Assembly: GCA_016125215.1 (NCBI GenBank)
Contig: WGMF01000024.1
Span: 1-64,000, forward strand
From: Phycisphaera sp.
GTDB taxonomy: Bacteria > Planctomycetota > Phycisphaerae > Phycisphaerales > Phycisphaeraceae
Direction: 5' to 3'
Length of the DNA stretch: 64,000 nucleotides
Shown: piece by piece, positions 3,782 to 61,295 of the stretch
How the letters are laid out: each line of letters begins with the position of its first letter
How positions within the stretch are numbered: the first letter of the stretch is position 1
Notes under the pieces: generated by a model
What the model was told of the DNA's origin: nothing
The model's input: only the letters and a program-made list of their open reading frames with translations
Database searches by the model: none
Program-made: the position numbers and the translations under genes

Positions 3782-4426
3782 GTGTGTGAAAACTATTCAG
3801 ACCGGGCCTTGAAGATGGTGCAGACGCAGTTGCGCCCGCGCGGCATCCACGACGAAGCGGTGCTCCGTGTCATGAGCACGATCCCAAGGCATTTCTTTGT
3901 GCCGCACGCCGACCTCGACGACGCCTACTCCGACCGCGCCCTGCCCACACACGAGGGGCAGACGATCTCGCAGCCTTACGTCGTCGCACTCATGACGCAA
4001 TTGTTAGAGGCTCAACCGGGCGTGCGCGTGCTGGAGGTCGGCACGGGCAGCGGGTACCAGACCGCCATCCTTGCGAGCCTTGGTGCGCAGGTCGTCACCG
4101 TCGAACGCAGCCGATGGCTCTCGCAGGAGGCGCGGGGCAACCTCGAAAAACTCAAGCTCGCGGGCAGCGTGGTCTTCATCGTGGGCGATGGTTCGCTTGG
4201 TGAGCCGACACTCGGTCCCTACGACCGCATCCTCGTCACCGCCGCAGCCCCGCGCTTGCCAAAGTGTTACCTCGACCAGCTCAAAACCGGCGGTCGCATC
4301 GTCATCCCCGTCGGCGACCACGAAACACAGACGCTCATGAGCTATGACTTCGACGGCCAGAAAGTCACCGCTCAAGAACACATCGCGGTCCGCTTCGTGC
4401 CGCTCGTCGGCGAGCAGGGGTTTTAG
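3782..4426 (+). CDS. pcm: protein-L-isoaspartate O-methyltransferase
   Basis: Repairs isoaspartyl residues in damaged proteins using S-adenosylmethionine, in the cytoplasm. The 214 aa product carries the family signature GQTISQPYVVALMTQLLE, the SAM motif LEVGTGSGYQTAIL and the post-motif pattern Pro-Tyr-Asp-Arg-Ile-Leu-Val-Thr-Ala-Ala, and it ends in Val-Arg-Phe-Val-Pro-Leu-Val as E. coli Pcm does. The chosen start is GTG 3782; ATG 3812 would remove residues that still align with the family. The stop codon is the first base pair of a repeat element (4426-4590). It is divergent from the TetR gene with about 150 bases between. Confidence 0.93.
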   Translation: MCENYSDRALKMVQTQLRPRGIHDEAVLRVMSTIPRHFFVPHADLDDAYSDRALPTHEGQTISQPYVVALMTQLLEAQPGVRVLEVGTGSGYQTAILASLGAQVVTVERSRWLSQEARGNLEKLKLAGSVVFIVGDGSLGEPTLGPYDRILVTAAAPRLPKCYLDQLKTGGRIVIPVGDHETQTLMSYDFDGQKVTAQEHIAVRFVPLVGEQGF

Positions 4427-4590
4427 CCGCAGATGAACGCGGATGAACGCGGATGGGAAAAGAGTTCAATGATGTGAGTGCTGCGCACTCACCACCGATC
4501 ACAAGCGTTTGGGTTGCCTGCGTGTGGATTGATGTTGGCACATGATCCGGCTTTCTGATCTTTCTGCGTTCATCTGCGTCTATCTGCGGC
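4426..4590. repeat. intergenic inverted repeat, CAGATG type, with an inner palindrome
   Basis: Left arm 4426-4455 is three units of (CC)GCAGATGAAC/GCGGATGAAC; right arm 4564-4590 is the complement CTGCGTTCATCTGCGTC.. ending CTGCGGC. Inside is a perfect palindrome GTGAGTGC-TGC-GCACTCAC (4474-4492). It starts on the pcm stop codon and ends nine bases before the ilvD stop, filling the whole convergent gap. Confidence 0.8.
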
Positions 4591-4599
4591 TACATGGCT

Positions 4600-6303
4600 T
4601 CACGCATCGGTGACGCAGCCCTCGCTCGCGGTCTTCACGAGCTTGATGTATTTCCACAGCGTGCCGCGCGTGGCTTTGTAGGGTGGCATCTTCCACGCGG
4701 CTTTGCGTTGGGATAATTCGTCGTCGCTGACCGCCATCGAGATCGTGCCCGTCGTGTCGTTGATGGTGATGACATCGCCGGTCTTGACCAGAGCGATCGG
4801 GCCACCCTCCTGCGCCTCGGGGACGACGTGGCCGATGATAAACCCGTGCGACCCGCCGGAGAATCGGCCGTCGGTGATGAGCGCAACGGAATCGATGAAC
4901 CCCGCGCCGGCCAGGGCGCTGGTGGGGGTGAGCATCTCGGGCATGCCGGGGCCACCTTTGGGGCCTTCGTAGCGGATGACGATCACGTCGCCGTGCTTGA
5001 TCTCGTTGTTCTCGAGGCCCTTGAGCATGTCCTCTTCGCAATCGTAGACCCGCGCGGGTCCTTGGAAGTGAAGACCTTGTTTGCCGGTGATCTTGCCGAC
5101 CGCGCCGCCGGGGGCCAGGTTGCCCTTGAGGATGGAGATGTGGCCGGTCTTTTTCAGGGGCGATTCAAGCGGCGCGATGACTTTCTGGCCCGGGGCCATG
5201 TCGGGGACGCCGGCCAGGTTTTCACTGACCGTCTTGCCAGTGACGGTCATGCACGAGCCGTCGAGCAGGCCTTTACCGAGCAGGTACTTCATCACCGCGG
5301 GGACGCCGCCGATCTTGTGGATGTCTTCCATGACGAACTTGCCCGAGGGCTTGAGGTCCGCCAGGAGCGGGATGCGCTGCTGCACCGCGTGGAAGTCGTC
5401 GATGGTGAGTCTGAGGCCAAAGGCGTCGGCCATGGCGATCAGGTGCAACACGAGATTAGTCGACCCGCCCATCGCCATCGCCAGGACCATGGCGTTTTCA
5501 ATGCTCTTGCGTGTGACGATGTCGCGTGGCTTGAGGTCCAGTTCAAGGAGCGTGCGCATCATCCGACCGGCCTCAACACATTCCTCCAATTTCCGGGGGT
5601 CGGTCGCGGGGGTCGAGGAGGAGTAGGGCAGGCTCATGCCCAGGGCTTCGATGGCGCTGGCCATCGTGTTGGCGGTATACATCCCGCCGCACGCACCGGC
5701 CCCGGGGCAGCTCTTGGCAACAATGTCCTTGCGTTCGGCTTCGGTGATTTTTTTCGTAAGCGCCTCACCGTAGCTCTGGAATGCGCTGACGATGTCAAGC
5801 ACGCGGTCCTGGCCCTGCACCGTGGTGCAGCCGGGCTTGATGGTGCCGCCATAGACCATGATCGCGGGGCGGTTGAGCCTGCCCATGGCAATGAGGCAAC
5901 CGGGCATGTTCTTGTCGCACCCGGGCAGAGCGACGAGCGCGTCGTACCACTGCGCGCCCATGACGGTCTCGATCGAGTCGGCAATCAGGTCGCGTGACTG
6001 CAATGAAAACGACATCCCGTCGGTGCCCATCGAGATGCCGTCGGAGACGCCGATTGTGTTGAAACGCATCCCGACCATGCCCGCGCCGAGCGCGCCCTCG
6101 CGGACCTTGGCAGCCAGGTCGTTGAGGTGCATGTTGCAGGTGTTGCCCTCGAACCAGTTGGCACAGATGCCGACCTGCGGTTTGTCGAGGTCGTCGAGCG
6201 ACAGGCCGGTGCCCAGGAGCATGGCCTGCGAGGCGCCCTGACTTTTGGGCTGCGTGATGTGGCTGGAATACTTGTTGAGGGGTTTGGTCGTGGTGGTGCT
6301 CAT
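4600..6303 (-). CDS. ilvD: dihydroxy-acid dehydratase
   Basis: Iron-sulfur dehydratase that makes 2-keto acids from 2,3-dihydroxy acids in valine/isoleucine and CoA-precursor synthesis. The product is 567 aa, the usual length. Visible family motifs: [19 protein letters not shown] near residue 120, the second cysteine motif [16 protein letters not shown] near 190, and the C-terminal [11 protein letters not shown] and DGRFSGG stretches. The ATG at 6303 is preceded by GAGG at a good distance, so I prefer it to the in-frame upstream starts (to 6333). No other ilv gene is adjacent; it stands alone between two repeat elements. Confidence 0.96.
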
Positions 6304-6367
6304 AGGGTGCCTCATGGAATAAAGTCGAGCCACACAGTTTAGCGGATGCGGGGAGTGGACGGGAAAA

Positions 6368-6676
6368 CAGGATTGAGGGGATCAACCGGATCAGAGCCGG
6401 AGGTTTCAACACAGAGGGCGCAGAGGACACAGAGAAGAAGATAAGAGTGATCCACAGATGGCGCAGATAAGAGGGGTTTGAATGGGTTATTGAAAGCTCG
6501 TCGCACCTCTTCATCCGAAAGACGGGTACGAAAGGATCGATTGAACCCGTTAGCGATTCGTTTTGTTTTCATCTGCGTCATCTGCGGATGGTTCTCTGCC
6601 TTGATCTCTGTGTGCTCTGTGTCCTCTGTGGTGATCTCAGAATCCCGTCGATCCGGTCGATCCTGTTATCCTGTCA
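6368..6676. repeat. three-level nested intergenic inverted repeat (GATCC / CAGAG / CAGATG types)
   Basis: Three arm pairs are nested. Outermost: 6368-6400 (units AGGATT, GGATCAACC, GGATCAG) against 6640-6676 (CGATCCGGT, CGATCCTGT, TATCCTGTC). Middle: 6410-6437 (ACAGAGGGCGCAGAGGACAC) against 6606-6633 (CTCTGTGTGCTCTGTGTCC). Inner: 6449-6471 (CCACAGATGGCGCAGAT) against 6567-6589 (CATCTGCGTCATCTGCGG). It fills most of the 396-base gap between divergent ilvD and the kinase gene. Apparent reading frames through it (Cys/Val/Ser-rich) are artefacts of the repeats. Confidence 0.85.
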
Positions 6677-6699
6677 AACTCTTCTTGAAAGGTACCGAC

Positions 6700-7374
6700 A
6701 TGCCGAATGAACTCACCCGATCGCTTGACGACGCCACGATCGACGCCTTGGCGCTTGAACTGATCGAGCGCTCGAAGTACGACATCCTTCACCGCTACAT
6801 CGTCGGTATCGCGGGCATCCCCGGGGCGGGGAAGACGACGCTGGCCCACCGACTTTACGCGCACATCGTCGGGCGTGACACGGAGCTTTGCCGGGTCGTG
6901 AGCATGGATGGTTTTCACTTTACGAACCACCGCCTCGAAATGGAGGGCCTGACGCCGTACAAGGGCGCGCCGCAGACATTTGACGCCCACGCCTACACCG
7001 GCTTTCTTTACGCCCTTCACGATGCGACGCGCACCTTCCACGCACCCATTTACGACCGCAACACCCACGACCCCGTGATCGGCCTGGACAAAGATTGCAC
7101 CATCGGGCCACGCTGCCGGATCATCATCACCGAGGGCAATTACCTGCTTCTGGATCAGGAGCCGTGGAGCGACCTTGAGGAAATCCTGCACGAGTGCTGG
7201 CTGCTGGAGACGCCCGAAGAGACCGCGAAGAAGCGGCTCATTGCCCGGCACATCGCTGGGGGCAGGACGCAACATAGCGCGGAAGAACATTACGCAAACG
7301 TCGATGCCCAGAACACACGGCTGGTCGAGAGCCAGATGCGTGAGCCGGATTTGCGGTTGCGCTGGCCAATGTAA
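6700..7374 (+). CDS. P-loop kinase of the pantothenate kinase/uridine kinase-like superfamily
   Basis: Soluble 224 aa protein with Walker A GIAGIPGAGKTTLA (residues 37-50), the substrate-binding stretch VSMDGFHF, the Tyr-Asp-Arg-x-x-His-Asp-Pro motif and ITEGNYLLLD. This pattern fits the nucleoside/nucleotide kinase group that includes YggC-like and fructose-kinase-like (FrcK) proteins, which phosphorylate a small molecule or sugar with ATP. The substrate cannot be read from the sequence. ATG 6700 has AAAGG upstream; longer in-frame starts run through repeat sequence and are rejected. Confidence 0.82.
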   Translation: MPNELTRSLDDATIDALALELIERSKYDILHRYIVGIAGIPGAGKTTLAHRLYAHIVGRDTELCRVVSMDGFHFTNHRLEMEGLTPYKGAPQTFDAHAYTGFLYALHDATRTFHAPIYDRNTHDPVIGLDKDCTIGPRCRIIITEGNYLLLDQEPWSDLEEILHECWLLETPEETAKKRLIARHIAGGRTQHSAEEHYANVDAQNTRLVESQMREPDLRLRWPM

Positions 7375-8861: not shown

Positions 8862-9716
8862 ATGACGTTCACGCAAGGCATCCTCGTCCTCGTCATCGGC
8901 CTATTGGGCGGCGTGCTCGGCGGGATGCTAGGCGTAGGCGGGAGCGTCATCATGATCCCCGGCTTGACCATGGCGCTGGGGCCGAACCAGCATCTTTATC
9001 AGGCCGCCGCCATGATTGCCAACGTCGCGGTCTCGATCCCCGCTGCGCTGCGGCATCGGAGGTCGGGCATGATGCTGCCTCATGTTCTCAAATGGATGCT
9101 CCCCGCCGCGGTAGTGTTCATCCTCGTCGGCGTGTGGGCAAGCAATCTCGAACTCTTCCGCTCTTCATCGGGCGAGCAGCGGCTGAGGCGGGTTTTTGCG
9201 CTCTTTCTGGTCTATGTGATCTATGTCAACGTGGTGCGTTTGGTCCGTCCGCGATCATCGAGTGACAGCGACCTGACACTTGATCCCGTCGAAGTCCGTG
9301 AAAACACACGCAAGACCGCAACACCTGTGCGCTGCGGGGTCGTCGGCTCGGTGATGGGCACGATCGGCGGCTTACTGGGCATCGGCGGTGGGGCGGTCGC
9401 GGTGCCGATGCAACAGGTCTTGCTCCGCTTGCCCCTGCGTTCGTGCATTGCCAACAGTTCGATGGTGATCTGCGTCAGCGCAGCGATTGGCGCGATCTAC
9501 AAAAACATGACGCTCGGTCAGCACGTTGTCCCCAGCGAGCCGGCGTCGGTTCTGAGCTGGTCCGACAGCGTGATGATCGCGGCGGTGCTTGCGCCCACGG
9601 CGTGGGTCGGCGGGCGACTGGGCGCATCGCTCACGCACCGGCTGCCGCTTCGCGTCGTGCGCATCGCGTTTGTCGTGCTCATGATCGTCGCGGCCTGGAA
9701 GATGGCGGGACTGTGA
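8862..9716 (+). CDS. TauE/SafE (DUF81) family membrane transporter
   Basis: Inner-membrane protein of 284 aa with two Gly-rich repeats, GLLGGVLGGMLGVGGSVIMIPGL at the start and GTIGGLLGIGGGAVAVPM in the middle, the hallmark of the TauE/SafE family. These move small organic or sulfur anions such as sulfite or sulfoacetate outward, or act as permeases. Seven or eight hydrophobic segments are visible. It is divergent from the sugar-nucleotide dehydrogenase. A sulfatase gene lies convergently next door, so a sulfur-export role is plausible but is only inferred. Confidence 0.9.
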   Translation: MTFTQGILVLVIGLLGGVLGGMLGVGGSVIMIPGLTMALGPNQHLYQAAAMIANVAVSIPAALRHRRSGMMLPHVLKWMLPAAVVFILVGVWASNLELFRSSSGEQRLRRVFALFLVYVIYVNVVRLVRPRSSSDSDLTLDPVEVRENTRKTATPVRCGVVGSVMGTIGGLLGIGGGAVAVPMQQVLLRLPLRSCIANSSMVICVSAAIGAIYKNMTLGQHVVPSEPASVLSWSDSVMIAAVLAPTAWVGGRLGASLTHRLPLRVVRIAFVVLMIVAAWKMAGL

Positions 9717-9727
9717 CGGTTTGTTTT

Positions 9728-11137
9728 TTAAGTTAACGCCGGCACGATCTCGCACGCCGGCTCACCGATGCGACGCATCCGTTCCTTGATCCGTGAGGCA
9801 AGCTCTGCACGCACCGTGGCCAGTGACGGTTCACCGACAAGATTGTTCAATTCGTAAGGGTCGTTCTCAAGGTCGTAGAGCACCGCTTCGGTGTATCTCG
9901 CTGCGCAGCCGGGTGCTGCGTCGATCCAGTCTTTCTCGGGAGCAGCGATCCCGTACTTCCATCTCGCGGTCCTCAGCGCACGGCCGGTCTGCGATTCACT
10001 GATCTGGGCGTAGACGTCATCGGGCCAGGGATGGTCACATCGTGCCGCGCCGGTGAGTTGCTGCAGCGGTCTGCCTGCGAAGTTACCCGGCACCACCACA
10101 CCCGCCGCGTGCAGGACCGTAGCCGGCAGGTCGATCAGGCTCACGAGTTCATCCACGACACCCGGGCCTTGCGAGCCGGCTCCGCGATGGGGTCCCGTGA
10201 AGCCCGGCCCCTGAATAATCAGCGGGATGCGCAGAGAGGCTTCGTGGGGCGAGCGTTTGTATTCGCCGTTGCGCGTGCAGAAGTGGCAGCCGTGGTCGGT
10301 GGTGTAGATCACCAGCGTGTTGTCGGACAGGCCGAGCATGTCCAGTTCGTGGAAGATCGTGCCCATCGCGCGGTCGAGCGCATCGCAGCAGCCCAGGTAG
10401 TCGGGCAGGTGGCGTGGCCAATCGCCTTTTCCGCCATTGATCTTTGTTGCTCCGATCAAGTCGCCCGGCACGCGGTGTTGGGCAAAGCGTTGTTTGGAGC
10501 CGATCGGTCCGACGTATCGGTTCAGGTCGTTCTGCTGGTGCGGTTCGATGAAACTGGCAAACATGAAGAACGGCTTGCCGCTGCGTCGGGTGTGGTATTG
10601 ACGCAGGTACTCCAGCACGAAGTGCGTCGTGGCCTCGACGCGGTAGCCCTCCCAGTCCACACGCCTGTTGTCTTTGTCGAAGTAGTAACCCTCGTAACCG
10701 TGGCTGGTGAACTCGAGCACGTCGGCCGCCATCCAATAGTCGCGGTATCCGCCGCGGCGTTCGGCTGGAACGGGGCGCGTGCGGAAGTTGTCCTGTCCAT
10801 CCGACGCCAGGTGCCACTTGCCGACGTAAGCCGTTTCGTAACCAGCCGCGCCGAGCAGCTTGGCAATCGTCGGTTGATCGATCGGCAGTGAACGGTTGTT
10901 TACGACACAACCGGTCTGCGTGGCGTACAACCCCGACTGCAGACATGACCGAGCCGGCCCACACACGGGCTGCATCGTAAAGGTATGACGGAACCGCACC
11001 CCTCTGGCCGCCATCGCGTCGAGGTTCGGCGTCAGGCCATCGACAAACCCCGGGAAGTTCGGCTCACGGTAACAGTTGATGGTATCAAATCTTTGCTGGT
11101 CGGAAAGGACAAAGAGGATGTTGGGGGGGATAGACAT
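9728..11137 (-). CDS. type I sulfatase (arylsulfatase/choline-sulfatase-like)
   Basis: Hydrolyses a sulfate ester. The N-terminus PPNILFVLSDQQRFDT supplies metal-binding Asp residues, and Cys59-Gly-Pro-Ala-Arg63 is the Cys-x-Pro-x-Arg formylglycine motif that needs the maturation enzyme. The C-terminal subdomain and the His/Lys residues of the family follow; length about 469 aa is normal. No signal peptide is visible from ATG 11137, so it would be cytoplasmic unless the start is wrong. A GTG three codons upstream is an alternative. Substrate unknown; sulfatase richness is usual in planctomycetes that use sulfated algal polysaccharides. Confidence 0.93.
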   Translation of the reverse strand: MSIPPNILFVLSDQQRFDTINCYREPNFPGFVDGLTPNLDAMAARGVRFRHTFTMQPVCGPARSCLQSGLYATQTGCVVNNRSLPIDQPTIAKLLGAAGYETAYVGKWHLASDGQDNFRTRPVPAERRGGYRDYWMAADVLEFTSHGYEGYYFDKDNRRVDWEGYRVEATTHFVLEYLRQYHTRRSGKPFFMFASFIEPHQQNDLNRYVGPIGSKQRFAQHRVPGDLIGATKINGGKGDWPRHLPDYLGCCDALDRAMGTIFHELDMLGLSDNTLVIYTTDHGCHFCTRNGEYKRSPHEASLRIPLIIQGPGFTGPHRGAGSQGPGVVDELVSLIDLPATVLHAAGVVVPGNFAGRPLQQLTGAARCDHPWPDDVYAQISESQTGRALRTARWKYGIAAPEKDWIDAAPGCAARYTEAVLYDLENDPYELNNLVGEPSLATVRAELASRIKERMRRIGEPACEIVPALT

Positions 11138-25905: not shown

Positions 25906-27102
25906 ATGGCCGCGACAGATTTTCATCCCGAATCGCCCCGAGCACGGACGGTACACGACCTGGCCGAGCGTCTAGGCTTTGCCTTCTGCGGGATCGCCCC
26001 CGCCAATGAAAGCAAGTACGCGGTCCACGTGCGAGAGTGGTTGGCAAACGCTCGGCACGGCGAGATGGCGTTCATGGCCGAGGACGTGGACGTGCGTGTG
26101 GACCCCCGTAAGTTGGTGCCTGGAGCGACGGCCGTCATTGTCGTGGGGGATGGGTATGGGGGAAGTGGCCGAATGGGAAGAAGTGGCCGAGTGACCGAGT
26201 GGTCCAGTGACCAAGTGAAAGGCAAAGAAGCCGACTCCGATTCTGCACAGTCGGCCACTGGGCCACTTGACCACTCGGCCACTTCGCCTTCTGGGCGCAT
26301 CGCCGCCTACGCGCAATCGAAGGACTACCACGCGCGCATGAAAAAGCGCATGCACCGTCTGTCTGACGAACTGCGCATCCGCTGGCCGGGGTATGCGTAT
26401 CGTTCGTGCGTGGATTCGGCCCCGATCCTCGAGCGCGAGCAGGCGCTGCGGGCGGGTCTGGGATGGATCGGCAAGAACACCATGCTCATCTCACCGAGCA
26501 AGGGTTCCTGTTTCACACTCGGGTGCATCGTGACGACACTTCCGATACAGACCTTCGACGGGCCGGTTGTGGCCGACCACTGCGGCACGTGTACCCGTTG
26601 TATCGACGCCTGCCCGACGAGGTGTATCTCGCCGGAGGGTTATCACCTCGACGCGACACGTTGCATCAGCTACCTCACCATTGAACACCGAAGCGCCATC
26701 GCACCCGACCTGCACGAGCCGATGGGCGAATGGCTAGCGGGCTGCGACGTGTGTCAGAAGGTCTGTCCATACAACGAGTCACCGTCGTTACCTCATGCAG
26801 CACGTCACCCCGTTTTGAAATCGCGCTTCAATCTGCTCGATATCCTCCACTGGACCCCCGAACGGAGGCAAAATGCTCTGGTCAACTCTCCGCTCAAGCG
26901 CATCCGTCTGGACATGTGGAAACGCAACGCCCTGATCGCGGCGGGCAATCACCTTTTGGATCACACCGATGCCGCGCTGCTGTCACGCATCCGGGAACTC
27001 TCCACCGACGAAACAGAATCCGTGCTTGTCCGTGTCACCGCGCAACAGACTCTTGAGCGATTGACGGGACGGTGGCACAGGTTTCATCCGAGCAAAGAGT
27101 GA
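25906..27102 (+). CDS. queG: epoxyqueuosine reductase QueG (with in-frame repeat insertion)
   Basis: Last enzyme of queuosine tRNA modification; a cobalamin and 2x4Fe-4S protein. The 398 aa product has the catalytic Asp in YRSCVDSAPILERE, GWIGKNTMLI, the cluster motif CGTCTRCIDACPTRCI and the second motif CDVCQKVCPYNE, then HEAT-like C-terminal helices. Residues about 86-130 (Gly/Ser/Arg/Asp-rich) are not part of the family. They are the translation of an inverted repeat between the conserved strand VIVVGDGYG and RIAAYAQSKDYHARM, and they keep the frame. The stop codon abuts a further repeat element. Confidence 0.93.
   Translation: MAATDFHPESPRARTVHDLAERLGFAFCGIAPANESKYAVHVREWLANARHGEMAFMAEDVDVRVDPRKLVPGATAVIVVGDGYGGSGRMGRSGRVTEWSSDQVKGKEADSDSAQSATGPLDHSATSPSGRIAAYAQSKDYHARMKKRMHRLSDELRIRWPGYAYRSCVDSAPILEREQALRAGLGWIGKNTMLISPSKGSCFTLGCIVTTLPIQTFDGPVVADHCGTCTRCIDACPTRCISPEGYHLDATRCISYLTIEHRSAIAPDLHEPMGEWLAGCDVCQKVCPYNESPSLPHAARHPVLKSRFNLLDILHWTPERRQNALVNSPLKRIRLDMWKRNALIAAGNHLLDHTDAALLSRIRELSTDETESVLVRVTAQQTLERLTGRWHRFHPSKE
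26161..26289. repeat. inverted repeat inserted in frame within queG (GTGGCCGAGTG type)
   Basis: Left arm 26162-26219 repeats GAAGTGGCCGA.., GTGACCGAG, TGGTCCAG, TGACCAAG at 8-9 bp spacing; right arm 26250-26288 has CGGCCACTGGGCCACTTGAC and ends CTCGGCCACTTC, its complement. The inserted length (about 135 bases, 45 codons) is a multiple of three and has no stop in the queG frame. Confidence 0.85.
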
Positions 27103-27256
27103 TCCGCAGATGACGCGGATGTTATCAAGTCGAATAAAACCACCGAGACACCGAGCACACCGAGAAAGACATGCGTCAAGGCTTCCTCTCGGTGTGCTCG
27201 GTGTCTCGGTGGCTATACATGGATCGAATCTGCGTCATCGACGTCATCTGCGGATC
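27101..27256. repeat. two-level nested intergenic inverted repeat (CAGATG outer, CACCGAG inner)
   Basis: Outer arms: 27101-27120 (GATCCGCAGATGACGCGGAT) and 27228-27256 (ending GTCATCTGCGGATC). Inner arms: 27140-27164 (CCACCGAGACACCGAGCACA..) and 27188-27212 (CTCGGTGTGCTCGGTGTCTC..), which are perfect complements. The left end is the queG stop codon itself and the right end lies 11 bases from the plsC stop. Confidence 0.88.
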
Positions 27257-27267
27257 ACACCCTCTGC

Positions 27268-35721: not shown

Positions 35722-35887
35722 AACACAGAGTTCACAGACGACACAGAGCAAGACAGATAGAAGAATATCCACAGAGGCTGAGATTTGCGCAGATTCAGAA
35801 CATGGCGGAGGGTGTCTGTTTGAGATCATCAATCCTCATACTCTTTCCCCTCAGTGCTCTCTGTGTCCTCTGTGTCCTCTGCGTTTC
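35722..35887. repeat. intergenic inverted repeat, CAGAG type
   Basis: Left arm 35722-35748 (AACACAGAGTTCACAGACGA..) and right arm 35854-35887 (CTCTGTGTCCTCTGTGTCC..). Inside are a CACAGAGG/GCGCAGATT half-element (35770-35797) and an ATCATCAATCC copy. The right end is six bases from the aspS stop. Confidence 0.8.
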
Positions 35888-37773: not shown

Positions 37774-37858
37774 ACCGCAGAGGACGCAGAGTTCGCAGAG
37801 AGAGCATGAATCACTCTTTGACTCGGTCTTCTCTGCGTCCTCTGCGATCTCTGCGGCT
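37774..37858. repeat. intergenic inverted repeat, CAGAG type (compact)
   Basis: Left arm 37774-37802 is three 9-bp units (CGCAGAGGA, CGCAGAGTT, CGCAGAG); right arm 37830-37858 is CTCTGCGTCCTCTGCGATC.. ending CTGCGG. Only 27 bases separate the arms. The right end is eight bases before the cstA start, so a strong hairpin would sit in the cstA leader. Confidence 0.88.
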
Positions 37859-44709: not shown

Positions 44710-45231
44710 ATGACCATCACACGCACCGCTCACGCTTATCTTGCCGACACCGCTCGCGTGCTGGGCGAAGTGACGCTCGGCCACGATGTCAACATCTGGT
44801 ACGGCGCATCGATCCGCGGCGACGTGGCACCGGTGAAGATCGGGCGGGCCACCAACGTGCAGGACAACGCGGTCGTCCACTGCGACCACGGCAAGCCCAA
44901 CGTGATCGGCGAGTTGGTCACCATTGGCCACGGCGCGATCGTGCACGGTGTCGAGGTCGGTGACGGGTCACTAATCGGCATGGGGGCGACGTTGCTCGGT
45001 GGAACGAAAATCGGCAAGCGCTGCCTCATCGCCGCTGGCGCGGTGGTCCCGCCGGGGCTGGTCGTGCCCGACGGCATGGTCGTCATGGGCGTGCCGGGCA
45101 AAATCGTGCGTGAAACCAACGACAAGGAAAAAGAATACCTCGCGTGGCTCGCGCCGCACTACGTCGCACTGGCCAAGCGCCACGCCGAGCAACGTGACGA
45201 CCCTCGCGTGAAACCGTGGAGAGGGGAATAG
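44710..45231 (+). CDS. gamma-class carbonic anhydrase family protein (left-handed beta-helix)
   Basis: A 173 aa hexapeptide-repeat protein of the YrdA/PaaY/CamH-like group. The three candidate zinc ligands are in VVHCDH, IGHGAIVHG; the repeat turns (IRGDVAPVKIGRATNVQDNAV, LIGMGATLLGGTKIGK) fit the trimeric left-handed helix. The catalytic activity of this branch is often unproven. ATG 44710 or ATG 44701; neither has a ribosome site, so a leaderless transcript is possible (TATAGC at 44676-44681). Its stop codon is the left edge of a large repeat element. Confidence 0.9.
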   Translation: MTITRTAHAYLADTARVLGEVTLGHDVNIWYGASIRGDVAPVKIGRATNVQDNAVVHCDHGKPNVIGELVTIGHGAIVHGVEVGDGSLIGMGATLLGGTKIGKRCLIAAGAVVPPGLVVPDGMVVMGVPGKIVRETNDKEKEYLAWLAPHYVALAKRHAEQRDDPRVKPWRGE

Positions 45232-45520
45232 TTCACGCGGGGGCCGCGGAGAGCGCGGGGGGGGACCGGTTCACGCCAAGACGCCAAGAGCGCCAAGTTA
45301 TTCAGAGGGAATTGAGAGATATCAACATGAATGTTTAGCGAGTGACGTGAAACGTCCCCAGGCACCTGGGCAAAGGTGTCAATGTTGATAAGACCGATTC
45401 GAGATCATCAATCATCATTCCTCAATCAGCAATGGATCAAACCCTTGCCGTCCTTGGCGACTTGGCGTGAAATATCCTGTATTCTCTCCCCCCTGCGCTC
45501 CCCGCGGCCCCCGCGTGAAC
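45231..45520. repeat. nested intergenic inverted repeat (CGCGG outer, CCAAG inner)
   Basis: Outer arms 45231-45265 (GTTCACGCGGGGGCCGCGG..) and 45483-45520 (..CCGCGGCCCCCGCGTGAAC). Inner arms 45270-45297 (TTCACGCCAAGACGCCAAGA..) and 45444-45471 (..GGCGACTTGGCGTGAA). In the centre ATCAACAT/ATGTTGAT form a third small hairpin and an ATCATCAATC copy lies at 45402-45412. It spans the whole gap from the carbonic anhydrase stop to the hisA ribosome site, whose GGAAG belongs to a CCCCCGGAAG copy at 45520-45529. Confidence 0.88.
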
Positions 45521-59131: not shown

Positions 59132-59167
59132 CAGGGGCTTTCATGGTGTCTGACTGGGGAAGGGGAT

Positions 59168-59386
59168 GTCTCGCGAAGAACGCGAAGGGGTTCACGCCAA
59201 GCCCGCCAAGGGGGGAGGGGGTCAATCCATAGATGATTGATGATTGATTATTGATGATCTCAAACATGGGTCTACGGAGGATTTCCTATTGCTTACTCTC
59301 TTGTTTTCAATCTTGGCGTCCTTGGCGGGCTTGGCGAGAAACTTTTTGCTCTCTCTTCTTCGCGTCCTTCGCGAGCTTCGCGAGAC
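59168..59386. repeat. nested intergenic inverted repeat (CGAAG outer, CCAAG inner) with ATCATCAA core
   Basis: Outer arms 59168-59188 (GTCTCGCGAAGAACGCGAAGG) and 59358-59386 (CTTCGCGTCCTTCGCGAGC..). Inner arms 59191-59211 (TTCACGCCAAGCCCGCCAAG) and 59312-59338 (CTTGGCGTCCTTGGCGGGC..). The loop contains GATGATTGATGATTGATTAT (59231-59261). It occupies the gap between lon and hsp20, both leftward. Confidence 0.88.
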
Positions 59387-59399
59387 ATCGGATTCATTT

Positions 59400-59927: not shown

Positions 59928-61295
59928 TCACGTGTTGGTGTCGATCCATTGCCGACACGCCCGGGCAAGTTGCGCGACATGGTCCTCGGCCATGTCGCTG
60001 CGCAGACTGATGCGTACACGGCTACTCCCCGGGGCCACGGTGGGCGGTCGGATGGCAGGGGCAAGGAAGCCGTGCTTTTCGAGGTGCGACGCAATTGAGA
60101 GGGCGGCTTCCGGGCTGCCGACGATCAGGGGGATGATGGGAGTCGCCACGGCGGTTGGTCCCAGCATGTCATGGCGGAAAGCGGGGGGTAAATCGCTCAA
60201 AGCCTCACGCAATGTCCGGGAAAGCCGGGACAGCCGTTGCCGACGCTGGGGTTCGCGTTCGAGGATATCGAGCGCCGCATCGACGGCGGCGGCCTGGCCG
60301 GGTGGGACGGCTGTGGTGTAGATCAACGAACGGGCACGGTTGATGATCGTGTCGATCACGGTGCGTGATGACGTGACGATCCCGCCAAGTGAGCCGAGCG
60401 CTTTGCTTGCGGTGCTGACGGTGACATCGACTCGGTGTGTGACGCCCTGTAACTCGCTCAGCCCTGCGCCGGTTTCGCCGAGCACACCGGTGGCGTGGGC
60501 TTCGTCGACGATGAGGATTGCGTCGTACCGGTCGGCAAGGTCACAGAGTCTGACAAGGTCAGCCACATCGCCGTCCATGGAGAAGACGGAGTCGGTCAGG
60601 ATGATTCGACGGGGGGGCGTCACGGATTGACGGGTGTCGGGATCGATCCGCAGATTACGCAGATTTCGCAGATTGGGGACATGTTCCTTCTCATGTCCCG
60701 ATCCATCCGGACCTGCGTCAGTTTCATCGGCCTTAAAATCTGCGTCATCTGCGCAACCTGCGGATAACTCCCCTCTCTCGTTTGAGACCGACTCAACATG
60801 TTTTTGAAGCAGCCGTTCGAGCTTGTCGTATTTCAGGTGCGGGTAGACGCGGACGGTCGCACCGGAGAGTCGCGCAGCGTCGATGAGGCTGGCGTGGCAG
60901 AGCTTGTCGAGAAAGACCACGTCACGTCCGTCACGCACAAGCGACGTGACCACGGCTAGGTTGGCCATGTACCCCGTCGGGCAGAGCAGCGCAGCCGCGG
61001 CGTGTTTGAAGCGGGCTAAGCGCGACTCAACCTGTTCGTGGATGTCGAGCGTGCCGCAAGTGAGTCGGCTGGCGGTCGAGCCGGTGCCGAAGCGCTCGAT
61101 CGCCTTGACCACGGCTTGGCGCATGTGCGGGTGTGACGCCAGGCCGAGGTAGTCGTTGCCAGCCAGGTTGACCAGCCTCTGGTTGCGACGCTGGACATAC
61201 AGACCTGCGGTGTCGGATGACCGTAAGACCCTTCGCATGTGCGCACGACCAAGGTTGGCAAGTTCGCTGTCGAGTTCATCAAGCCAACGGTCCAT
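59928..61295 (-). CDS. bioF: 8-amino-7-oxononanoate synthase (BioF) with in-frame repeat insertion
   Basis: PLP-dependent alpha-oxoamine synthase joining pimeloyl-thioester and alanine in biotin synthesis; 455 aa, about 70 longer than E. coli BioF. Visible: LAGNDYLGLASHP, GSTASRLTCGTL, TDSVFSMDGDVADL, VDEAHATGVLGETGAG, PLP Lys about 298 in VSTASKALGSLGG, and the BioF-like ending IRPPTVAPGSSRVRI. Kbl-like activity is less likely. Residues about 178-220 (Asp/Glu/Arg-rich, with NLRNLRNLR) are not conserved and translate an inverted repeat. Start ATG 61295. Confidence 0.9.
   Translation of the reverse strand: MDRWLDELDSELANLGRAHMRRVLRSSDTAGLYVQRRNQRLVNLAGNDYLGLASHPHMRQAVVKAIERFGTGSTASRLTCGTLDIHEQVESRLARFKHAAAALLCPTGYMANLAVVTSLVRDGRDVVFLDKLCHASLIDAARLSGATVRVYPHLKYDKLERLLQKHVESVSNERGELSAGCADDADFKADETDAGPDGSGHEKEHVPNLRNLRNLRIDPDTRQSVTPPRRIILTDSVFSMDGDVADLVRLCDLADRYDAILIVDEAHATGVLGETGAGLSELQGVTHRVDVTVSTASKALGSLGGIVTSSRTVIDTIINRARSLIYTTAVPPGQAAAVDAALDILEREPQRRQRLSRLSRTLREALSDLPPAFRHDMLGPTAVATPIIPLIVGSPEAALSIASHLEKHGFLAPAIRPPTVAPGSSRVRISLRSDMAEDHVAQLARACRQWIDTNT
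60645..60766. repeat. CAGATG-type inverted repeat inserted in frame within bioF
   Basis: Outer arms 60645-60678 (GATCCGCAGATTACGCAGAT..) and 60735-60766 (..TCTGCGCAACCTGCGGAT); inner palindrome GGGACATG (60676-60683) and CATGTCCC (60692-60699). It is open in the bioF frame and lies exactly where the protein has extra residues. Confidence 0.87.

Follow-up and report, generated by a model that had tools for sequence, protein, structure and literature searches.

In the known REPtrons and TIRtrons, RAYT genes are flanked by REPs or long TIRs, and the repeat-flanked gene copy is accompanied by many gene-less intergenic palindromes presumed to be moved in trans (PMC3733652). The elements described below share this arrangement, but the REPtron and TIRtron enzyme is an HUH tyrosine transposase, whereas here the enclosed gene encodes a PD-(D/E)XK protein and the arms, which nest, are built of repeated 7-bp cores and free spacers. 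In Geobacter metallireducens, repeats of 7-8 nt were reported to form paired arrays on opposite strands with a variable gap (Aklujkar 2009; PMC2700814), classes 1-3 comprising octamers and heptamers; they resemble the present elements in their short tandem units and, in the excerpts of that paper that were available, are described as predicted global-regulator sites of the IHF/HU type, with no mention of a linked gene or of nesting. Eukaryotic foldback transposons, such as Tetris and Galileo, also have terminal inverted repeats that are internally repetitive, but, according to the accessible parts of their descriptions, they lack a PD-(D/E)XK protein, Galileo having a P-type transposase (PMC4079207, PMC3573991). 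The IVS of 23S rRNA, as portrayed in the available sections of its source, is a selfish element with a terminal stem that replaces the hairpin loops of rRNA helices and encodes the four-helix-bundle protein S23 (PMC4990558), a layout that resembles the TIGR02436 elements discussed below, although the IVS is confined to rRNA, has no tandem-unit arms and encodes a protein different from GxxExxY. The TAACTGA repeats of Beggiatoaceae are, like the arrays studied here, intergenic heptamer arrays suspected of being mobile or protein-bound, but almost all are direct rather than inverted and no enzyme has been named for them (PMC4679880). In the literature searched, whose scope excluded most subscription papers and all preprints, no description of elements like ours was found, GxxExxY is mentioned only in passing, and six arm strings are absent from the relevant papers.

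The structure in question lies in a 64,000-nt window, the whole stretch of Phycisphaera sp. DNA that was analysed, in the gap between ilvD (4600-6333, minus strand) and a kinase-like gene (about 6700-7374, plus strand), the latter found in 21 of 60 relatives with at most 51% identity. The sequence-only reading had claimed a three-level nested inverted repeat here, and direct inspection of 6367-6674 bears this out: three inverted pairs of arms lie one inside another, with the cores, outermost first, A[CG][ACG]GGAT (ACRGGAT), CRCAGAG and CRCAGAT. The outer pair, of the so-called GATCC type, has a left arm at 6367-6391 on the plus strand (ACAGGAT-TG-AGGGGAT-CA-ACCGGAT, with 2-nt spacers) and a right arm at 6642-6674 on the minus strand (reverse complement ACAGGAT-A-ACAGGAT-CG-ACCGGAT-CG-ACGGGAT). 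The middle pair comprises 6410-6434 (plus; CACAGAG-GG-CGCAGAG-GA-CACAGAG, with the head TTTCAA at 6404-6409) and 6606-6630 (minus; reverse complement CACAGAG-GA-CACAGAG-CA-CACAGAG, head ATCAC), and the inner pair 6453-6468 (plus; CACAGAT-GG-CGCAGAT, head GATC) and 6571-6586 (minus; reverse complement CGCAGAT-GA-CGCAGAT). Each arm holds two to four inward-pointing copies of a 7-bp core; the units are indeed repeated, as that reading had it, but most are a core plus a 2-nt spacer rather than plain 8-10-bp units. The gaps between successive arms, left/right, are 18/11 nt from outer to middle and 18/19 nt from middle to inner, short and nearly symmetric, placing each inner element near the centre of what would otherwise be an outer loop of ~30-37 nt. 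The innermost loop (6469-6570, about 102 nt) has no GxxExxY remnant, and a profile search of the whole window, this loop included, detected no GxxExxY gene. The region of the middle right arm (6554-6634) is 82% identical to another element (L238:13513-13588), and inverted pairs with ACAGGAT/ACGGGAT units, resembling the outer type, occur in L226 and L237. We interpret 6367-6674, with a probability of roughly 0.65, as three copies of a single kind of mobile element, all of them gene-less (MITE-like) and lodged one in the loop of the next, for which a GxxExxY nuclease is the candidate mover.

In a 418-kb sample of the source genome, mostly picked around CRCAGAG matches and hence not an estimate of whole-genome copy number, 128 inverted-repeat pairs were found, 59 of them with periodic arms, versus 34 pairs and no periodic ones in three shuffles together, while across the 4.04-Mb genome the dimer CRCAGAGN{0,4}CRCAGAG occurs 252 times, and never when read backwards; the arm units therefore withstand both the comparison with shuffled DNA and the genome search that the sequence-only reading had put forward as checks. 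The unit families comprise CRCAGAG (periods of 9 and 8 bp), CGCAGAT (9 bp), CGCAGATGAA (10 bp), CGCCAAG, CGCGAAG, CRCCGAG, ACRGGAT and the 8-bp CGAGTGGC; their commonest heads are TCAC, GAAC, TAAC and AAAC, and the loops mostly measure 21-208 nt. Among all unique loci in the dataset, opposite-strand arrays point inwards in 104 cases and outwards in 4; rare outward pairs whose heads face each other (CTCTGTGGTTAATAAATAAAATAACCACAGAG), as at L160 (Parachlamydiaceae) and L114, are perhaps the junction of two elements. When 127 unique three-unit pairs are compared, cores agree at 96% between the arms of one element and at 87% between arms of different elements, and spacers at 41% versus 35%; since cores agree far more than spacers, the core, and not the duplex, is the conserved feature. 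This bears on an RNA-level explanation, in which the hairpin would do no harm because RNase III excises it from transcripts, and the element would spread by rare recombination or reverse transcription, as might be imagined for an element like the IVS with its terminal stem and four-helix-bundle protein (PMC4990558, in the sections available). It would fit the predicted RNA fold of 6340-6700, which, as a further check proposed for 6368-6676, proved much stronger than that of shuffles (-174.9 kcal/mol against -117.5 +/- 6.0; z = -9.6), but spacers that pair little above chance imply that duplex RNA is not what is conserved, and the elements are intergenic and occur in all orientations, 39 of the 41 sampled lying between predicted protein genes rather than in 23S rRNA helices; we give this explanation hardly any credence. 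A structured RNA was rejected on the same spacer pairing and the lack of any Rfam match in the window.

Composites have been copied within the source genome: over about 258 bp, L224:13283-13541 matches L226:12115-11856 at 90% identity, L223:13921-14149 matches 5820-5601 of the same locus at 88%, and L225:9250-9432 matches L237:7886-7697 at 82%. In these pairs homology spans outermost arm to outermost arm, with its limits at or within ~10 nt of those arms and the nested inner element included, whereas the sequences on either side are unrelated; nested composites were thus copied whole. Two 160-bp composite repeats (L241:8513-8672 and 9713-9872), 93% identical and inverted, flank a single gene and are likely a recent duplication. 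Presence also differs within genera. Among species of one genus, the gap between groEL and dnaJ is occupied by a GxxExxY element in two genomes (G042 and G046) and is a plain 71-bp gap in a third (G037), with flanks 91-93% identical, and in another genus a gap has a 167-bp element in G303 and none in G242. Neither L224/L226 nor the groEL-dnaJ gap shows a target-site duplication, and no base-exact empty site was found, the compared gaps, groEL-dnaJ included, differing beyond the element itself. Nesting occurs both ways, CAGAT inside CAGAG and CAGAG inside CAGAT, and inner elements mostly sit near the centre of an outer loop of ~30 nt. In ten nested pairs, the gaps to either side tend to be short and of similar length (15/15, 16/15, 16/17, 19/9, 10/19), which suggests hairpin loops as insertion targets. 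Of the earlier proposal that the modules insert into, or grow inside, one another, insertion gains from the two nesting orders, the central position and the arm-to-arm duplications, while growth from within found no support. The same observations weigh on the view that the arms are host regulatory or nucleoid-protein sites, or transcription terminators, to which a nuclease gene is merely adjacent. Free spacers are compatible with recognition by a protein, and the available excerpts on G. metallireducens take its paired arrays as IHF/HU-type sites (PMC2700814), but patchy presence among congeners, duplicated composites amid unrelated flanks and arms that follow the nuclease (see below) make this view improbable. 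Terminators in particular were rejected because convergent gaps are not favoured, the elements lying in 25 codirectional, 6 divergent and 5 convergent contexts against a background of 106, 47 and 26.

These arms also enclose genes. In related planctomycetes, the arms of two 450-bp elements (L206 and L217) enclose a TIGR04256 GxxExxY gene, with proteins scoring 136-137 bits against the TIGR04256 cut-off of 35 and 135-137 against the PF13366 (PDDEXK_3) cut-off of 22. The source genome has five GxxExxY genes (profile scores of 133-147 bits), and tandem-unit arms surround every one of them, the unit family differing from gene to gene: CGCAGATGAA (L427), CGCAGAG (L428), CGCCAAG (L429), CGCAGAT (L430) and CGCGAAG (L431, which has an internal TAG). 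Gene-carrying copies of the outer ACRGGAT and CACCGAG families were not found in this genome. The final arm unit directly adjoins an ATG in L428, L429 and L431, so that the purine-rich arm may serve as a ribosome site. A test for arms that is blind to unit sequences, with reversed flanks as the control, was passed by 19 of 25 GxxExxY loci of Planctomycetota (control 2/25; kinase genes 0/20) and by 24 of 30 in other phyla (control 1/30), including Chlamydiae, cyanobacteria, Bacteroides finegoldii and two archaeal (Methanosarcinales) genomes; 10 of 288 genes of the source genome (1 of 85 short ones) also passed, through chance, REPs or neighbouring elements. Across planctomycete genomes, GxxExxY is present in 49 of the 56 that are element-rich, being undetected in seven, versus 89 of 238 others (Fisher p = 5e-12), and it is present in 43 of 50 genomes of many phyla chosen by their arms. 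Distribution is sharply patchy in one genus (g126; G303, G242, G294, G230, G202 and G139): CRCAGAG dimers number 79-100 in two species, both with GxxExxY, and 25 in another, where we found no such gene, while the remaining three have neither. B. finegoldii DSM 17565 carries GxxExxY between arms and, in addition, a copy that lacks the gene. Plasmids, considered as a source of empty sites, were set aside, only 6 of 72,556 records carrying GxxExxY, one of them a B. finegoldii locus with the order radA, GxxExxY, FAD gene; a phage origin was rejected, GxxExxY occurring in none of 50,697 phage records and at one viral-contig locus, although arm patterns do occur in IMG/VR contigs. In one genus, two GxxExxY genes (G107:C21:9880-10322 and G177:C1:295140-295573) are flanked by direct, not inverted, arrays. 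GxxExxY is the sole gene in the gene-carrying copies studied, with no known transposon enzyme (DDE, HUH, Tyr/Ser recombinase) inside the arms. The gene and its arms are inherited as a single unit, and very probably move as one.

The window holds gene-less copies of the arm families that surround GxxExxY genes of its own genome, some with the same head. Recurrence of the arms at 4426, 27101, 35722, 37774, 45231, 51203 and 59168, noted in the sequence-only reading, is real at every position, as single or nested elements. The element at 4424-4592, with 10-bp CGCAGATGAA units, has the arm type and the head (TAGC) of L427; 51203-51376, a CGCCAAG element, has the arm type of L429; and 60646-60765, a CGCAGAT element of 9-bp period, that of L430. 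At 59165-59389, CGCGAAG outer arms with the head TCTCGCGAAG, as in L431, enclose CGCCAAG arms. Outer CAGAT arms enclose CACCGAG arms at 27099-27258, and at 45231-45520 outer arms of CGCGGGG type enclose a CGCCAAG element, with a 7-bp TGATTGA-type array also in the loop; a CACAGAG element lies at 35722-35885 and a CGCAGAG element with a short loop at 37775-37856. Like MITEs, these copies have terminal inverted repeats, no transposase and ends in common with a gene-carrying element. A further inverted element, of 8-bp units (GTGGCCGA/GAGTGGCC), lies at 26164-26290, in frame within a QueG gene (25906-27102), where alignment to the QueG of the PDB places ~30 extra residues, and resembles palindromic elements tolerated within genes. 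Because positions 21-148 are 98% identical to the end of another contig (C5; L227:13757-13884), the contig boundary may fall at a repeat.

A tyrosine transposase (Y1_Tnp) of the RAYT or TIRYT kind, moving REP/REPIN- or TIR-type elements, would be the conventional agent, and Y1_Tnp is indeed found in 47 of the 56 element-rich genomes versus 137 of the 238 others (p = 2e-4), with six to seven such genes in the source genome. RAYTs are nevertheless unlikely movers because those of the source genome carry other REPs: where repeats are seen at their flanks they are other palindromes (AAACGGTGTCGG, GTGCCACTGGCGGC), never tandem-unit arms. Such arms occur at none of six Y1_Tnp loci of the phylum, and GxxExxY is present in eight of the nine element-rich genomes without Y1_Tnp (G170, G204, G216, G232, G244, G321, G331 and G335), the exception being G148, which has neither. 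The arms are 7 + 2 arrays, with no GTAG/CGTC tag beside a 20-40-nt palindrome, and no Y1_Tnp gene was found flanked by the same tandem-unit arms. We consider a role for these transposases very improbable. REP-like palindromes AAACGGTGTCGGATACCGTTT and GTGCCACTGGCGGCTTGCCCGCCAGTG flank RAYT genes of the source genome and are also dispersed alone (L270, L273, L225:249-439 and L223:15018-15090).

GxxExxY (TIGR04256/PF13366) belongs to the PD-(D/E)XK nuclease superfamily and has RecB/Cas4-like motifs, D71, E81, K83, Q95 and Y99 (D...ExK, QxxxY) being invariant in 13 sequences. The gene is under purifying selection, with a dN/dS of 0.067 between G042 and G046, equal to that of groEL, and of 0.070 between two copies on one Omnitrophota contig. 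Its AlphaFold model, of modest quality (pLDDT 77), yields Foldseek matches no better than E 0.03, all weak, the nearest being Cas4 (4ic1), tRNA-splicing endonuclease, alkaline exonuclease and lambda exonuclease, and a PDB sequence search returned no credible relative. At 56 GxxExxY loci of many phyla, arm core and nuclease co-vary in sequence (Mantel rho 0.37, p = 0.0003), and the last core base is that of the nearest protein neighbour at 54 of 56, versus 45 expected. For example, L427 and a locus of the unclassified bacterium SZUA-191 (L457) belong to one protein subfamily and carry CAGATGAA-like arms of 10-bp units, and both L430 and a Chloroflexi locus (L453) have 9-bp CGCAGAT arms. Such co-variation points to the GxxExxY nuclease as probably the mobility enzyme of the elements, though it could also arise if the linked gene and arms are simply inherited together, with no recognition involved.

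The specificity of the arm link was examined with genes for TIGR02436, a four-helix bundle unrelated to the nuclease. They lie within inverted arrays in 20 of 30 cases (control 2), with a period of 7 bp in 16 of the 20, whereas GxxExxY arms mostly have periods of 8-10 bp and never 7. The source genome has one such gene (L505), flanked by 7-bp ATTGATG arrays, and arrays matching its arms, some inverted, occur in the window at 136-222, 45405-45431 and 59229-59256. Because TIGR02436 genes are enclosed as well, but by 7-bp arrays, at least two element classes have a common layout; a link of the Beggiatoaceae TAACTGA repeats to the TIGR02436 elements is only a guess. The result strengthens the notion of a protein matched to its arm and yet keeps alive the view that both proteins are cargo, the arms being moved by another function of host or element, or arising from replication template switching. 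That two unrelated small proteins have one layout suits this view, as do the ratio of about one gene to many gene-less copies, the lack of a visible target-site duplication, and a 518-bp arm-flanked element of G242 (L202:2782-3300) with a 143-aa ORF without NCBIfam or Pfam match, which is possibly cargo or a third enzyme. Against it stand the arm period, which is specific to the protein family, and the arm core, which follows the nuclease subfamily across phyla, and we judge the cargo view unlikely, if the likeliest of the alternatives.

A complete element, of ~450-550 bp, consists of a single GxxExxY gene, encoding about 120 aa, with an inverted arm on either side; an arm has a short head (often TAAC, TCAC or TAGC) and about three inward 7-bp cores separated by free spacers of 1-3 nt. 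If the GxxExxY nuclease is the mover, its molecules would bind the repeated cores and unite the arms, perhaps on an extruded hairpin, and would cut, after which host repair would copy the element to a new site; that the nuclease binds the cores and drives copying is what we infer from the patterns above. Hairpin loops would be favoured as targets, giving rise to nesting, and gene-less copies would depend on the nuclease of the same arm family acting in trans. In the wider formulation, to which we assign about even odds, a stand-alone RecB/Cas4-like PD-(D/E)XK nuclease would be the sole enzyme of a class of bacterial and archaeal transposons, recognising inverted arms made of repeated 7-bp cores and inserting preferentially into hairpin loops, with the four-helix-bundle proteins defining a parallel class of 7-bp units.

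The CACAGAG-, CAGATG- and CCAAG-type intergenic strings of many phyla are now tied to a curated, uncharacterised protein family, and the GxxExxY link offers a candidate function for elements that the sequence-only reading had left without one. Intergenic repeats that lacked an explanation become an element open to testing, for which an enzyme and a recognition sequence can be proposed, and B. finegoldii DSM 17565, a cultured host with both gene-carrying and gene-less copies, makes the proposal directly testable. Heptamer arrays taken elsewhere as regulatory sites may have a possible origin here. If the nuclease does move these elements, it would be an enzyme type new to bacterial and archaeal DNA mobility.
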